Part shown: one piece after another, positions 1 through 4,243 of the stretch
Numbering within the stretch: position 1 is the stretch's first letter
Layout: each line of letters begins with the position of its first letter
Source: an uncultured Arenicella sp.
GTDB taxonomy: Bacteria > Pseudomonadota > Gammaproteobacteria > Arenicellales > Arenicellaceae
Length of the DNA stretch: 64,000 bases
Direction of reading: 5' to 3'
Assembly (NCBI GenBank): GCA_938045295.1
Contig: CALINO010000003.1
Location: 1-64,000, forward strand
The notes under the pieces: model-generated
What the model was told of the DNA's origin: nothing
Databases searched by the model: none
The model's input: the letters and a program-made list of their open reading frames with translations, nothing else
Program-made: the position numbers and the translations under genes

Positions 1-79
1 GTACCAATCACCGGTAAATTATGAGAAGCTGTGCGCATGAAAAGTGTCTACAAAAGTGGTAGCAGATCACGCCCGTTTG

Positions 80-92
80 GTGAGCGTTAGGT
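80..92 (+). other. attC 3' core (R' box) at left cassette boundary
   Basis: The sequence GAGCGTTAGGT places an R'-type core (GTTAGGT, 86-92) directly before the first ORF. In integrons recombination occurs between G and TT of this core, so the first cassette would begin at 87. Its first bases TTAGGT are complementary to the box ACCTAAC found at the end of the same cassette (488-494), as expected when an excised cassette closes into a circle. The rest of this attC site lies to the left and its R'' box is not in the window. Confidence 0.6.
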
Positions 93-97
93 ATACG

Positions 98-493
98 ATG
101 AGCCACGAACCTACGAAACTAGATCGAGAACTTTCTGAACAGGAGCTTTATTTAACTGAGTGGCTGTTGAAGAATGGCAAAGAGTCTAGCGAAAAATATA
201 TAGAGCAACTATCACTAGCAAGAGTTGAGTCATTATGTGGTTGCGGTTGTGCTAGCGTTGATTTTTCTATTGAAGGAAAACCTTCTGATAACAGTTCTGG
301 AATGGAAATACTTTCAGACTATATATTTACCACTAAGAAAGGCGAATTGAATGGTATTTTTGTCTTCGCCAAAAATGAACAATTAGCAGGGCTTGAGGTT
401 TGGTCAATAGATGGCCAAATGACACCAGATAAGCTTCCAGAAGTAGATGCTCTCAAACCTTTCAAACCAAATGAAATTTCAGGTGATACCTAA
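98..493 (+). CDS. Hypothetical protein, gene cassette 1
   Basis: A 131-residue soluble protein, not recognised. It has a Cys-rich segment (CGCGC near residue 50) and no signal peptide or membrane segment. The ATG at 98 is preferred over the in-frame GTG at 44 because that GTG lies upstream of the cassette boundary at 87 and a weak AGG precedes the ATG. The stop codon lies inside the R'' box of the following attC, a usual arrangement for a cassette gene. The general form (short N-terminal acidic helix, then a central Cys motif and beta-rich C-terminal half) resembles small orphan cassette proteins, but no function can be assigned. Confidence 0.65.
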   Translation: MSHEPTKLDRELSEQELYLTEWLLKNGKESSEKYIEQLSLARVESLCGCGCASVDFSIEGKPSDNSSGMEILSDYIFTTKKGELNGIFVFAKNEQLAGLEVWSIDGQMTPDKLPEVDALKPFKPNEISGDT

Positions 494-559
494 CAAGAAC
501 CAAAACGCTGCCTTCGGCAGTTCGGACGCGTTTTCAACGCGGTGTTTACGGCGTTAGCA
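488..559 (+). other. attC recombination site 1
   Basis: The site runs from the R'' box ACCTAAC (488-494) to the R' box GTTAGCA (553-559), 72 bp, a usual attC length. Internal arms pair: AAAACGC (502-508) with GCGTTTT (528-534), enclosing CTGCC/GGCAG (508-512 and 516-520). The R'' box matches the start of its own cassette (GTTAGGT at 86) and the R' box matches the R'' box of the next cassette (TGCTAAC at 965). This cross-pairing is what distinguishes a true attC from a chance hairpin. Confidence 0.72.
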
Positions 560-590
560 TTACTTAAATAAACTAATTACTAGGAATGTA

Positions 591-962
591 ATGTCAGTCT
601 CTAAAACAAAGATAGGTAAAGGTCTATCCTCAATGCACCGAACAACAAGTAGGTTGTTGGGCTTTGAAAAAATCACCCCAACGAGTGTTGATGAATTTCA
701 ACGACAGGTAAATAGAATGAGGAATGACCTAAATGATAATACTTATCAAGCTACTGTCTTCGCGTCCTATGCAAACCTTCATTCTTCCTATGCTGCTCTT
801 ACAAACGAGGAAAACACTATAGCTAGAATGGAGCGAAACGCTCACATTCGCAATATATTTTTTCGCGCATTAACAACTCTAACAATCGGTTTTTCTATTA
901 TGTTTGTTTACTGGGCTGCCTCGTGTTTAGGCATTTCAATGCCATTAAAGGGGTTATCCTAG
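591..962 (+). CDS. Hypothetical protein with C-terminal membrane segment, gene cassette 2
   Basis: A 123-residue protein of unknown function. The first ~85 residues are polar and probably helical; residues ~92-115 form one hydrophobic segment (around TTLTIGFSIMFVYWAASCLG), suggesting a tail-anchored or single-pass inner-membrane protein. It begins 37 nt after the cassette start at 554, and its stop is followed within 3 nt by the R'' box TGCTAAC. No Shine-Dalgarno of note precedes the ATG (TAGGAATGTA gives a short AGGA). I recognise no family. Confidence 0.65.
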   Translation: MSVSKTKIGKGLSSMHRTTSRLLGFEKITPTSVDEFQRQVNRMRNDLNDNTYQATVFASYANLHSSYAALTNEENTIARMERNAHIRNIFFRALTTLTIGFSIMFVYWAASCLGISMPLKGLS

Positions 963-964
963 AA

Positions 965-1015
965 TGCTAACAAGAATGGAAACGGTTACATCTTCGGCTC
1001 GCACGCGCCATAGCT
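965..1015 (+). other. attC site 2, 5' half; 3' half not recognisable
   Basis: TGCTAAC (965-971) is the exact complement of the GTTAGCA core that opens this cassette at 553-559, so it is a credible R'' box, and the following AAGAA resembles attC site 1. No GTTRRRY-type R' box was found in the next 170 bp (the nearest candidates GTTACAT and GTTGGGG do not fit). The 3' half is therefore either highly diverged or deleted, which would lock cassettes 2 and 3 together. Confidence 0.5.
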
Positions 1016-1028
1016 ATTGATAAATCTC

Positions 1029-1145
1029 ATGAAACGAATAGAAATTTTTGTACTTTGGGCTGCGCTATTATCACTCGCGTCTTCATTGTTGGGGTGCATA
1101 CTTTATCGTAGTTACGTATTTTATTTAGGAGGAAGAATAATATGA
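1029..1145 (+). CDS. 38-residue membrane peptide overlapping the next gene
   Basis: A short ORF whose peptide has two lysine/arginine residues, a hydrophobic stretch (residues 6-25, around FVLWAALLSLASSLLGC) and a short polar tail. Its TGA stop at 1143-1145 overlaps the ATG of the DUF1330-like gene (ATGA), an arrangement that gives translational coupling. It could be a real small membrane protein, a leader peptide, or the decayed remnant of a cassette gene; its own ribosome-binding site is poor. Confidence 0.35.
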   Translation: MKRIEIFVLWAALLSLASSLLGCILYRSYVFYLGGRII

Positions 1146-1447
1146 GCTTTGAAAGAATTATGGGGCTGCATGTTGTAAATGACGAGGAATATCAAAACTA
1201 CCGAGAAGCAATGGAGCCTATTTTGAATTCAGTGGGTGGGGCTTTTGGTTTTGATTTTAAAATCGCTGAAGTGCTTCGTTCAAAAACAGAAAATGAAATT
1301 AACCGTGTCTTTACTATTGAGTTTCCAAGTAAAGACGAAATGGAGAATTTCTTTTCAAGAAAAGACTATATTGAAATACAAAACAAGTATTTTGCACACG
1401 CGGTCAAAAGTAAAACTATTATATCAATGCATGAAAAGAGCGTTTAA
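1142..1447 (+). CDS. DUF1330-like protein, gene cassette 3
   Basis: A 101-residue protein with the pattern of the DUF1330 / dimeric alpha-beta barrel family: an early aromatic-rich helix (YQNYREAMEPIL), a GGAFGFDF strand, then VFTIEFPSKDEMENFFSRKD, typical of the strand-helix with a conserved F-S-pair. Enzymatic role unknown; small proteins of this fold are often dimeric and bind small molecules. A strong AGGAGGA (1127-1133) lies 8 nt upstream of the ATG. The stop codon sits inside an attC R'' box. No signal peptide. Confidence 0.7.
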   Translation: MSFERIMGLHVVNDEEYQNYREAMEPILNSVGGAFGFDFKIAEVLRSKTENEINRVFTIEFPSKDEMENFFSRKDYIEIQNKYFAHAVKSKTIISMHEKSV

Positions 1448-1494
1448 CAACCCCCAAAAAGGCCGCCTTAGGTAGAGGGTGTATGTCGTTAGGT
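1442..1494 (+). other. attC recombination site 3
   Basis: R'' box GTTTAAC (1442-1448) overlaps the stop of the preceding gene; R' box GTTAGGT is at 1488-1494. The 53-bp interval contains complementary stretches (ACCC/GGGT and AAGG/CCTT) consistent with a short attC fold. The R' sequence is the same as at 86-92. Cassette 4 would begin at 1489. The R'' box does not pair with any upstream GTTAAAC, which fits the damaged boundary between cassettes 2 and 3. Confidence 0.58.
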
Positions 1495-1525
1495 GGTTAT
1501 CGGTTTATAAATATAGAATGGTTAT

Positions 1526-1876
1526 ATGATTTATTGGATATCGACAATCTTGGTCTGCGCAGTTTTAGCGCTCAGTTCGGCCAGTTATATTTTTCATGCC
1601 CCAACAATAACCGGGGTGCGTGAACTTGGGTTTCCTGACTTTTTTAGAATTCAGCTAGCCGTGTTGAAAATTGCGGCGGTGATTGTCTTGCTTGCCCCTT
1701 CATTGCCCATTCAGTTTAAAGAATGGGCGTACGCTGGCGCTGCGTTATTTTTTATAACGGCAATTGTGGCTCACATAGCGCACAATGACTCTCATTTAAT
1801 CACACTGGCTAATATTGTTTTTTTAGTGTTGCTGGCTATGTCAAACTATTACTTGAAGCGTAGCGGCGCATATTGA
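1526..1876 (+). CDS. DoxX-like four-helix membrane protein, gene cassette 4
   Basis: A 116-residue integral membrane protein with about four hydrophobic helices (residues 3-22, 42-60, 66-84, 92-110). The GVRELGFPDFFRIQLAVLKIAAVIVLLAP segment, split by a short loop, is characteristic of the DoxX-like family (PF13564-type). Family members are inner-membrane proteins of uncertain function, sometimes linked to oxidative stress. It is a common class of integron cassette product. The start ATG follows the cassette boundary by 37 nt and has little Shine-Dalgarno sequence. Confidence 0.7.
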   Translation: MIYWISTILVCAVLALSSASYIFHAPTITGVRELGFPDFFRIQLAVLKIAAVIVLLAPSLPIQFKEWAYAGAALFFITAIVAHIAHNDSHLITLANIVFLVLLAMSNYYLKRSGAY

Positions 1877-1884
1877 TATGTACA

Positions 1885-1952
1885 GCCGCGCGATTAAATA
1901 TTTGTTTATTCACGGCGTGGGTTGGAAACTAGTCGGTCGATTTCTGCGCGGC
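1885..1952 (+). repeat. Inverted repeat after DoxX-like gene, possible decayed attC
   Basis: GCCGCGC (1885-1891) and GCGCGGC (1946-1952) are perfect inverted arms 54 nt apart, positioned where the attC of cassette 4 should be. The right arm runs into GCGTTAC, close to an R' core but not matching GTTRRRY, and no ACCTAAC R'' box is present. It may be a degenerate attC or a simple hairpin. Confidence 0.3.
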
Positions 1953-1977
1953 GTTACAAATACGGCAGGTGGTCATA

Positions 1978-2280
1978 ATGATTTCTGAAGGAAAGATTGA
2001 GGTTGAAAATATAAATACTCCGGGGTGTACATCAAACGTGAACGCTACTAAGTATTATGAAATGAAATCTGCGTTTCTAAAAATTTTACCCGAAACTTCT
2101 CCAGGGTTAACGCAGAAAGAAATTCAGATTGAGGTTAAAAAACATTTGTCAGAACGTATTTTCCCTGAAGGCAAAACATCTGGGTGGTGGGCAAAAACAG
2201 TTCAACTTGACCTGGAAGCCAAGGGTGTTGTCATTCGAGAGAGTACAAAACCACTTCGGTGGAGAAGAGTCGTATTTTAG
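1978..2280 (+). CDS. DUF6958-like protein, last cassette-type gene
   Basis: A 100-residue protein that fits a small family often found in gene cassettes: an N-terminal strand (KIEVENINTPG), a helix with KYYEMKSAFLKILP, then LTQKEI, and the well-conserved C-terminal run around SGWWAKTVQLDLEAKG and KPLRW. The pattern resembles a winged-helix-like domain; function unknown. ATG 1978 is chosen over the upstream GTG 1969 because AGGTGG (1967-1972) is then correctly spaced. It ends 34 nt before a shared terminator that separates the array from htpG. Confidence 0.7.
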   Translation: MISEGKIEVENINTPGCTSNVNATKYYEMKSAFLKILPETSPGLTQKEIQIEVKKHLSERIFPEGKTSGWWAKTVQLDLEAKGVVIRESTKPLRWRRVVF

Positions 2281-2313
2281 CTAAATTGCAGTTGATGTTA
2301 GTTATGAGCAACA

Positions 2314-2351
2314 AAAAAGCCCGTTTACCATTTCCAGTAAACGGGCTTTTT
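2314..2351. terminator. Bidirectional intrinsic terminator
   Basis: A 15-bp perfect stem (2314-2328 with 2337-2351) around an 8-nt loop, with runs of A on the left and T on the right. It can stop transcription from the cassette array on the + strand and from htpG on the - strand. Confidence 0.9.
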
Positions 2352-2371: not shown

Positions 2372-4243
2372 TTAGGCAACCAGTAAGCGGTTTACTAATT
2401 TAACGTAATTAGCCGGGTCTTTAAGTTGCGCGCCTTCGCTCAGTGCGGCTTGGTCGAACAGCACTTGTGCCCAATCAGAGAAGTTGTCGCTGTTTTCATC
2501 AAGCTGTTTAATCAAAGCATGGTCTGGGTTGATTTCCAGAATGGGTTGCGAACTTGGTGCGTCTTGGCCCATGGCTTTCATAATGCGCTCTAGGTTGGCA
2601 CCTGGGTCGCTTTCATCGGCCACTAGGCACGCAGGCGATTCGGTTAAGCGGTTAGTTAGGCGAACCTCTTTTACAGTTTCGCTCAGCACTTCTTTCAGCT
2701 TAGCGGTAATGCCCGACAGTGCTTCTTTGCGCTCTTCTTGCTCTTTCTTTTCGTCGTCACTCAGCTCTAGGTCGCCTTTGGTGACCGATTTAAGCGGCTT
2801 TTCGTTGAATTCAGGCAGGCTGTTCACCAACCATTCGTCCACTGGGTCGCTGAGCAATAGCACTTCAATGCCTTTTTTCGCGAACAGTTCCAAGTGCGGT
2901 GAACCTTTTGCGGCTTTGTGGCTTTCCCCGGTGATGTAGTAAATGGCGTCTTGATCTTCCGGCATGCGGCTAACGTAATCGTCCAGTGACACCGTTTGCT
3001 CATCCGACTCGGTGCTGGCAAAGCGCAGTAGGGGAGTGATGTTGTCTTTGTTAGGCATGTCTTCAATAACGCCTTCTTTGATCACCTGCCCGAACTCTTT
3101 CCAGAACTCTTGGTACGTTTCTGGTTCATCTTTAGCGATGCGTTTTAACTCATCAAGTACGCGCTTTACGGCACGGCCTTTGATTTTTTTGATGTCTCGG
3201 TCACTTTGTAAGATTTCACGCGACACGTTCAGTGGTAAATCAGCTGAATCGATTACCCCTTTGATAAATCGCAGGTAGTTTGGCATCAAGTTATCGGCGT
3301 CATCGGTAATGAAGATGCGGCGTACATACAGCTTAATGCCTTTTTTGTTGTCACGGTTCCATAAGTCAAACGGCGCTTTTTTAGGAATGTAGAGTAACGA
3401 GGTGTACTCCATATTGCCTTCTACTTTGTGGTGCAGGGTAGAAAGCGGCGGCTCAATGTCGTAGCTTAGCGACTGATAAAAGCTTTGGTACTCTTCATCG
3501 CTGATTTCACTTTTCGGGCGCGCCCACAATGCGGTGCCTTGGTTAATCGTTTCCAGTTCAGCTTCTTCGCCTTCTTTTGGGTTGCCTTCGTCGTCTAATG
3601 GCGTAGCTCCCAGCATTTTGATTGGCAGAGAAATGTGTTCTGAGTATTTATTAATAATGTGCTTCAATCTGAAGTCTTCTAAGTACTCGTGCTCTTCTTC
3701 ACGTAAATGCAGGGTGATTGAAGTGCCGGCGTCGTCGCGCGTTGCTTCACTCAGGGTGAACTCGCCCTTACCGTCAGATTCCCACTGGTGTGCCGTGTCT
3801 GAACCGGCACGGCGCGTTACTAGGCTCACCTTTTCGGCCACCATAAACACAGAATAAAAGCCCACGCCGAATTGGCCAATTAAGCTAACGTCATCGCCTT
3901 GTTGCTCGTCATTTTTTAACGCCTGCATGAATTTTTTGGTGCCAGAACGTGCAATGGTGCCGATGTTTTCAATGATTTCATCGTGCGACATACCAATGCC
4001 ATTATCGCTAATGGTAATGGTTTTGGCGTCTTTATCAGTGCTAATAGTCACCGCCAGCTCTTCGTCATCGCTGAGTAATGATGCGTCGGTTAGGGCTTCA
4101 AAGCGGCGCTTGTCTATCGCGTCAGAGCTGTTTGATATTAACTCTCTTAGAAAAATCTCTTTTTGACTGTAAAGAGAGTTGATCATTAGATCTAAGAGCT
4201 GAGAAATTTCGGTTTGAAATACGTGAGTTTGTGTGTTGCTCAT
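2372..4243 (-). CDS. htpG: Molecular chaperone HtpG (Hsp90 family)
   Basis: A 623-residue ATP-dependent cytosolic chaperone. The N-terminal GHKL ATPase domain shows ELISNSSDAIDK, SDNGIGM and GQFGVGFYSVFMVA; the middle domain has RRIFITDD and PLNVSREILQ with the catalytic-loop Arg; the C-terminal dimerisation domain ends at LVNRLLVA. Length matches family norms. It is monocistronic and reads toward the integron cassettes, with a shared terminator between. A good sigma-32 type promoter (4300-4327) lies ~60 nt upstream, so heat-shock control is expected. Confidence 0.97.
   Translation of the reverse strand: MSNTQTHVFQTEISQLLDLMINSLYSQKEIFLRELISNSSDAIDKRRFEALTDASLLSDDEELAVTISTDKDAKTITISDNGIGMSHDEIIENIGTIARSGTKKFMQALKNDEQQGDDVSLIGQFGVGFYSVFMVAEKVSLVTRRAGSDTAHQWESDGKGEFTLSEATRDDAGTSITLHLREEEHEYLEDFRLKHIINKYSEHISLPIKMLGATPLDDEGNPKEGEEAELETINQGTALWARPKSEISDEEYQSFYQSLSYDIEPPLSTLHHKVEGNMEYTSLLYIPKKAPFDLWNRDNKKGIKLYVRRIFITDDADNLMPNYLRFIKGVIDSADLPLNVSREILQSDRDIKKIKGRAVKRVLDELKRIAKDEPETYQEFWKEFGQVIKEGVIEDMPNKDNITPLLRFASTESDEQTVSLDDYVSRMPEDQDAIYYITGESHKAAKGSPHLELFAKKGIEVLLLSDPVDEWLVNSLPEFNEKPLKSVTKGDLELSDDEKKEQEERKEALSGITAKLKEVLSETVKEVRLTNRLTESPACLVADESDPGANLERIMKAMGQDAPSSQPILEINPDHALIKQLDENSDNFSDWAQVLFDQAALSEGAQLKDPANYVKLVNRLLVA

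Follow-up and report, generated by a model that had tools for sequence, protein, structure and literature searches.

To our knowledge, insertion sequences (IS) specific for the attC sites of integron gene cassettes are known only from the IS1111 group with DEDD transposases, and the open literature that we searched gave the same picture. Here, we analyzed a 64,000-nucleotide stretch of an uncultured Arenicella sp. (assembly GCA_938045295.1, contig CALINO010000003.1), referred to below as the window, which starts at base 1 of its contig, C3. Its left end carries the remnant of an integron gene-cassette array, and we put the probability that an IS3-family element targeting attC, at a fixed site and in one orientation, forms the left border of this remnant at about 0.88.

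Like the IS1111-attC elements (ISKpn4, ISPst6, and ISPa21), the element targets attC at a fixed place, but those elements use a DEDD (IS110/IS1111) transposase, whereas here we find IS3-family OrfA/OrfB of the DDE type, TG..CA terminal repeats, a position at the hairpin next to L', and a CGC triplet. A likeness of another kind exists with IS1397, ISKpn1, and ISPsy8, IS3-family elements that strongly prefer a palindromic repeat able to form a hairpin; their transposase sets the target, and ISPsy8 makes a 3-bp duplication (PMC1525189). These insert into repetitive extragenic palindromic (REP) sequences and the element described here into attC, a distinction made by target rather than by comparison of OrfB. 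Group IIC and IIB introns are also mobile elements associated with integrons and with integrase-less attC clusters (CALINs), but they are retroelements and not DDE transposons (PMC7923331). One survey counts IS3 transposases in arrays and leaves their target unstated (PMC11089894), and we found no report of attC targeting by an IS3-family transposase in the open literature, ISfinder and subscription papers lying outside the search. A second, mechanistically unrelated IS family in attC would make this site a repeated refuge for mobile elements.

The IS end at the left edge of the window

The IS end that bounds the array was absent from an earlier note on this DNA. It and the adjoining attC half comprise the following features:

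1..69, + strand: right end of an IS3-family IS, matching the one on contig C24 over 69 nt at 100% identity
2-37 (codons) and 38-40 (stop), + strand: C-terminus of OrfB, its last 12 residues, 12/12 identical
45..69, + strand: right terminal inverted repeat TGTCTACAAAAGTGGTAGCAGATCA, ending in CA, found by pattern search of the own genome
70..92, + strand: 3' half of the attC split by the IS, with CGC (likely target duplication), L' box, and R' core GTTAGGT at 86-92

Bases 1-69 recur on contigs C24 and C33. Bases 70-92 share their layout with the sequence beyond the other right ends and with attC sites that are still intact in this genome. Such intact sites carry GCGCGCCCGTTTT...GGCGTTAG without interruption; in one example the sequence runs GGACGCGCAAAAAGCGCG-CGC-CCGTTTTAAGGGCGTTAG. 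Searching the genome with the terminal-repeat pattern gave 8 ends (3 right-type and 5 left-type, against 0 in the control), and a ninth end with two mismatches is located on C68. All nine adjoin attC halves, at one position and in one orientation: beyond each right end comes CGC..L'..GCGTTA or a sequence close to it, and each left end comes after TAACAAG..L''.. and a GGA hairpin. Since two remnants lie inside contigs (C1 and C33), the link with attC is not an artefact of contig ends. No rve domain, and hence no complete IS, was found in the assembly of this genome, as expected of a collapsed repeat.

Recurrence in other genomes and the OrfB clade

Complete elements are approximately 1.30 kb long, with terminal repeats TGATCTG...GTGGACA. 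In the complete copy at locus L037, OrfA matches the helix-turn-helix family PF01527 (43.6 bits), and OrfB is an rve/DDE protein that matches the NCBIfam IS3 model with 288.7 bits (cut-off 160). The OrfB of full copies contains no IS110 domain, the mark of the DEDD transposases of the IS1111-attC group. In complete sister elements, the TG..CA inverted repeats match at 22-24 of 25 positions.

A collection of 84,980 species was scanned with the terminal repeat only, that is, with IS sequence and no attC, which yielded 32 loci, including ones in Alcanivorax, Thalassolituus, Microbulbifer, and Pseudoteredinibacter. The counts below pool these loci with the ends of the own genome, after removal of duplicate flanks, and the right ends counted are those with sequence beyond them. 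CGTTA occurs 14-18 nt outside the right end in 26/27 cases, compared to 1.7% at random positions of the same loci, and the distance to the R' core is 16 nt in most of the 26. TAACAA lies within 130 nt (<=130 nt) of the left end in 20/23 cases (null 6.1%), and a GGA[CTG] hairpin start is found in 16/22 left flanks (null 18%). In the flank logo, position -14 relative to the R' core is C at 24/26 right ends, and CGC is both the most frequent last triplet on the left and the most frequent first triplet on the right. A second sample, obtained with another terminal-repeat pattern and judged by eye, with chance matches lacking IS context excluded, added 5 attC insertions and 1 insertion elsewhere. 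The viral contigs searched gave no match. In Microbulbifer agarilyticus (L044 5785-5863), two IS ends face each other 29 nt apart, and this locus holds the only right end lacking CGTTA.

When 369 gammaproteobacterial genomes were searched with OrfB, copies with 64-68% identity were found in three genomes, followed by a gap down to <=46%. The five sister elements in the upper range for which flanks could be read all lie in attC (5/5). They include the elements of Candidatus Tenderia electrophaga, named through plasmid CP013100.1, which occupy the attC loop and are flanked by exact 3-bp duplications. A plasmid search also returned a single close relative, from Candidatus Tenderia electrophaga, the other hits being less than 60% identical, and an OrfB search within the same order at E 1e-70 found nothing. 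The main OrfB clade has support of 100/97 and all its members are associated with attC, whereas most placeable elements among the less related IS3 relatives (<=46% identity) have inserted elsewhere, often flanked by ordinary 3-bp duplications. Thus, the location within attC and the orientation are fixed, the association recurs in several genera, and it is restricted to one OrfB clade.

Two further loci, L058 and L059 (genomes G277 and G437), carry a second IS3 lineage that is also found in attC, with OrfB only 42-44% identical; its grouping with the main clade is not well supported (73/39). At L058, attC 3' halves are present on both sides, which suggests an inversion between two copies.

The cassette array and the other attC contigs

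To the right of the IS end, the array and its boundary are built up as follows:

98..493, + strand: cassette 1 open reading frame (ORF), 131 aa, weak similarity to DUF6984 (below the Pfam threshold)
488..559, + strand: attC of cassette 1, intact, running from R'' ACCTAAC to R' GTTAGCA, with a bottom-strand fold and a match to the held-out covariance model
591..962, + strand: cassette 2 ORF, 123 aa, unrecognised, probably a membrane protein
965..1025, + strand: attC of cassette 2, decayed; R'' TGCTAAC and L'' kept, L' and R' gone, 3.7 bits
1142..1447, + strand: DUF1330 ORF, Pfam 30.5 bits (cut-off 23)
1442..1494, + strand: weak attC-like site GTTTAAC ... GTTAGGT; motifs present, no support from the model
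1526..1876, + strand: DoxX_2 family ORF, Pfam 57.3 bits (cut-off 26.3)
1969..2280, + strand: DUF6958 ORF, Pfam 115.8 bits (cut-off 27)
2314..2351, no strand: hairpin with a 15-bp perfect inverted repeat, probable htpG terminator and right boundary of the array
2372-4243, minus strand: htpG, a non-cassette gene to the right of the array

The earlier note had described five same-strand ORFs here, with pairing motifs at their borders. The ORFs are as listed, and both motif pairs were found, GTTAGGT (86-92) with ACCTAAC (488-494) and GTTAGCA (553-559) with TGCTAAC (965-971), so that each cassette start matches its own R'', as expected of cassettes. The covariance model check that the note had proposed was run with a model trained on an alignment of ten attC sites, all intact and all located elsewhere in the genome, on contigs other than C3; because no window sequence was used in the training, the test is not circular. 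The model matched bases 488-559 on the bottom strand with a score of 31 bits, E being 5e-7 in an unfiltered run over 2.4 kb and 1.4e-5 over 64 kb, and this was the sole match in the window. The sites at 965-1025, without R' end, and 1442-1494, on the wrong strand, scored 3.7 and 4 bits, respectively. Outside the training set, the same model matched 11 more attC sites in the genome, as well as sites near IS copies in other species, and the aligned sibling sites adopt the usual attC fold, in which L'/L'' show compensatory changes and one base is extra-helical.

Of the attC-like separators claimed before, therefore, the one at 488-559 is intact, but those at 965 and 1442 fail the model and 70-92 is only a 3' half; the tally is one clean, one IS-split, and two decayed sites, and no attC was found after the DoxX_2 or DUF6958 ORFs. 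The DoxX-like and DUF6958-like assignments were borne out by Pfam matches above the cut-offs, and the product of cassette 2 is unrecognised, as had been said, but cassette 1 has its sub-threshold DUF6984 match. The description of bases 1-2300 as the distal end of an array agrees with the held-out model and with the non-cassette gene htpG that follows, but the array is partly decayed and does not contain four good attC sites. Bases 1-2280 are thus what is left of an integron gene-cassette array at its chromosome-side end; the array is real but decayed.

The genome has a single integron integrase (IntI) gene, at C1:21403-22338 (TIGR02249, 414 bits, cut-off 265), and attC model matches are found on at least 10 contigs (C1, C3, C10, C25, C30, C33, C39, C68, C70, and C86), on several of which the sites adjoin chromosomal genes. 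The chromosome therefore contains dispersed, integrase-less cassette clusters, and because the integrase is on C1 and attC sites are on at least 10 contigs, the array in the window may be a CALIN as well. A CALIN is defined by at least two attC sites without an integrase nearby; the window has one intact and one split attC, and its contig begins inside the IS. An integrase to the left, as the earlier note had expected, would lie beyond base 1. Several attC-bearing contigs of this genome carry no intI, as in a CALIN; the window is a contig end, and its left side lies outside the assembly. IntI uses non-canonical attG sites, according to Loot et al. 2024 as cited in PMC12901181, and insertion at such sites is a possible cause of the scattered clusters. 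ORFs resembling REP-associated (Y1-type) transposases were seen between the cassettes of C10 (L099 3721-5094) and beside a truncated IS on C33 (L002, from ~1608).

It is conceivable, though we consider it unlikely, that the integron with intI on C1 has its distal end in bases 1-2300, the two being split only by assembly at the IS. The cassettes do point away from the break and the genome does contain intI, but C1 itself runs from a clear array into non-cassette genes (a LysR regulator, a short-chain dehydrogenase/reductase, and others), and on at least 4 other contigs an attC is split by the IS and chromosomal genes lie on its other side, so that there are several separate arrays. Box pairing could not assign partner contigs: when left and right attC halves were paired across contigs by L''/L', a control on intact sites failed to recover the true partners, and therefore we do not join any contigs. 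An IS in attC also explains the breaks at contig ends that interrupt the cassette arrays of this genome.

Position of the element relative to the IntI boxes

A far less probable alternative is that the element never transposed into attC, and that the IS end served IntI as a secondary site into which cassettes were recombined. The activity of IntI at non-canonical attG sites, as reported in PMC12901181, fits with this, and so do two left-end remnants of different age, L009 12459-12596 on C1 and L089 4679-4812 on C68. Compared with the current IS end, one of the two has 100% and the other 88% identity. Both break at the same orfA codons, CCTG(G/A)CG^TT, as an IntI crossover at G^TT inside the IS would, and most relatives have GTTAGGT, the exact R' core, at this position. 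IntI crossover at a secondary site, or slippage between short repeats, are possible explanations for this shared break. However, IntI cuts G^TT in R', and the junction between IS and attC is 16 nt away from there, between L' and the hairpin; moreover, in L037, L057, and L083, the IS is flanked by both attC halves with a shared triplet. It is more improbable still that there is no real attC preference and that insertions simply survive in repetitive, dispensable, AT-rich intergenic array DNA, since, although cassette arrays generally tolerate insertions and attC is intergenic, tolerance predicts neither the constant spacing from R' (16 nt for the majority of the 26 ends), nor the fixed orientation, nor the CGC triplet, and most of the less related IS3 elements (<=46% identity) with placeable ends are outside attC.

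Several observations weigh against an attC-targeting IS3-family element. The body of the window's IS is missing from the assembly, and its transposase is deduced from 29-35 terminal residues and the repeats. There are exceptions to the rule, as the flanks of L054 and L120 are not attC and L044 lacks CGTTA. In addition, most complete elements with joined flanks have no exact end duplication: an exact 3-bp duplication is present in L037, L057, and L083, one of 4 bp in L028, and none in the other complete copies. Outside Tenderia, matching triplets are lacking in most complete copies, and in those copies the attC halves more often pair poorly, albeit in small numbers; recombination between IS copies, which would shuffle the arrays, may account for the missing duplications.

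The element inserts in one orientation at the base of the attC hairpin just outside L'. The R' core lies 14-18 nt away, most often 16, and the triplet that is duplicated is likely to be CGC. As R'', L'', L', and R' are all spared, the insertion turns the site into an attC whose central loop measures 1.3 kb. By analogy with IS1397 and ISKpn1, OrfA/OrfB may read the sequence or the structure of attC. The IS might then travel as part of a cassette, and it might freeze or rearrange arrays. With all four IntI boxes intact, whether the IS can ride inside a cassette becomes a testable question, and the element provides a naturally occurring DDE transposase whose target is structured and well defined. 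A more far-reaching scheme, which we regard as doubtful, has the DDE transposase recognising the folded single-stranded attC and sparing the IntI boxes, IntI carrying the IS between arrays, and the R'-like GTT in orfA serving as the IntI exit point. Finally, an attC-like site at L089 5489-5544 contains a 12-nt piece from the left end of the IS (TGACCTGATACC), as if an IS had been lost imprecisely.
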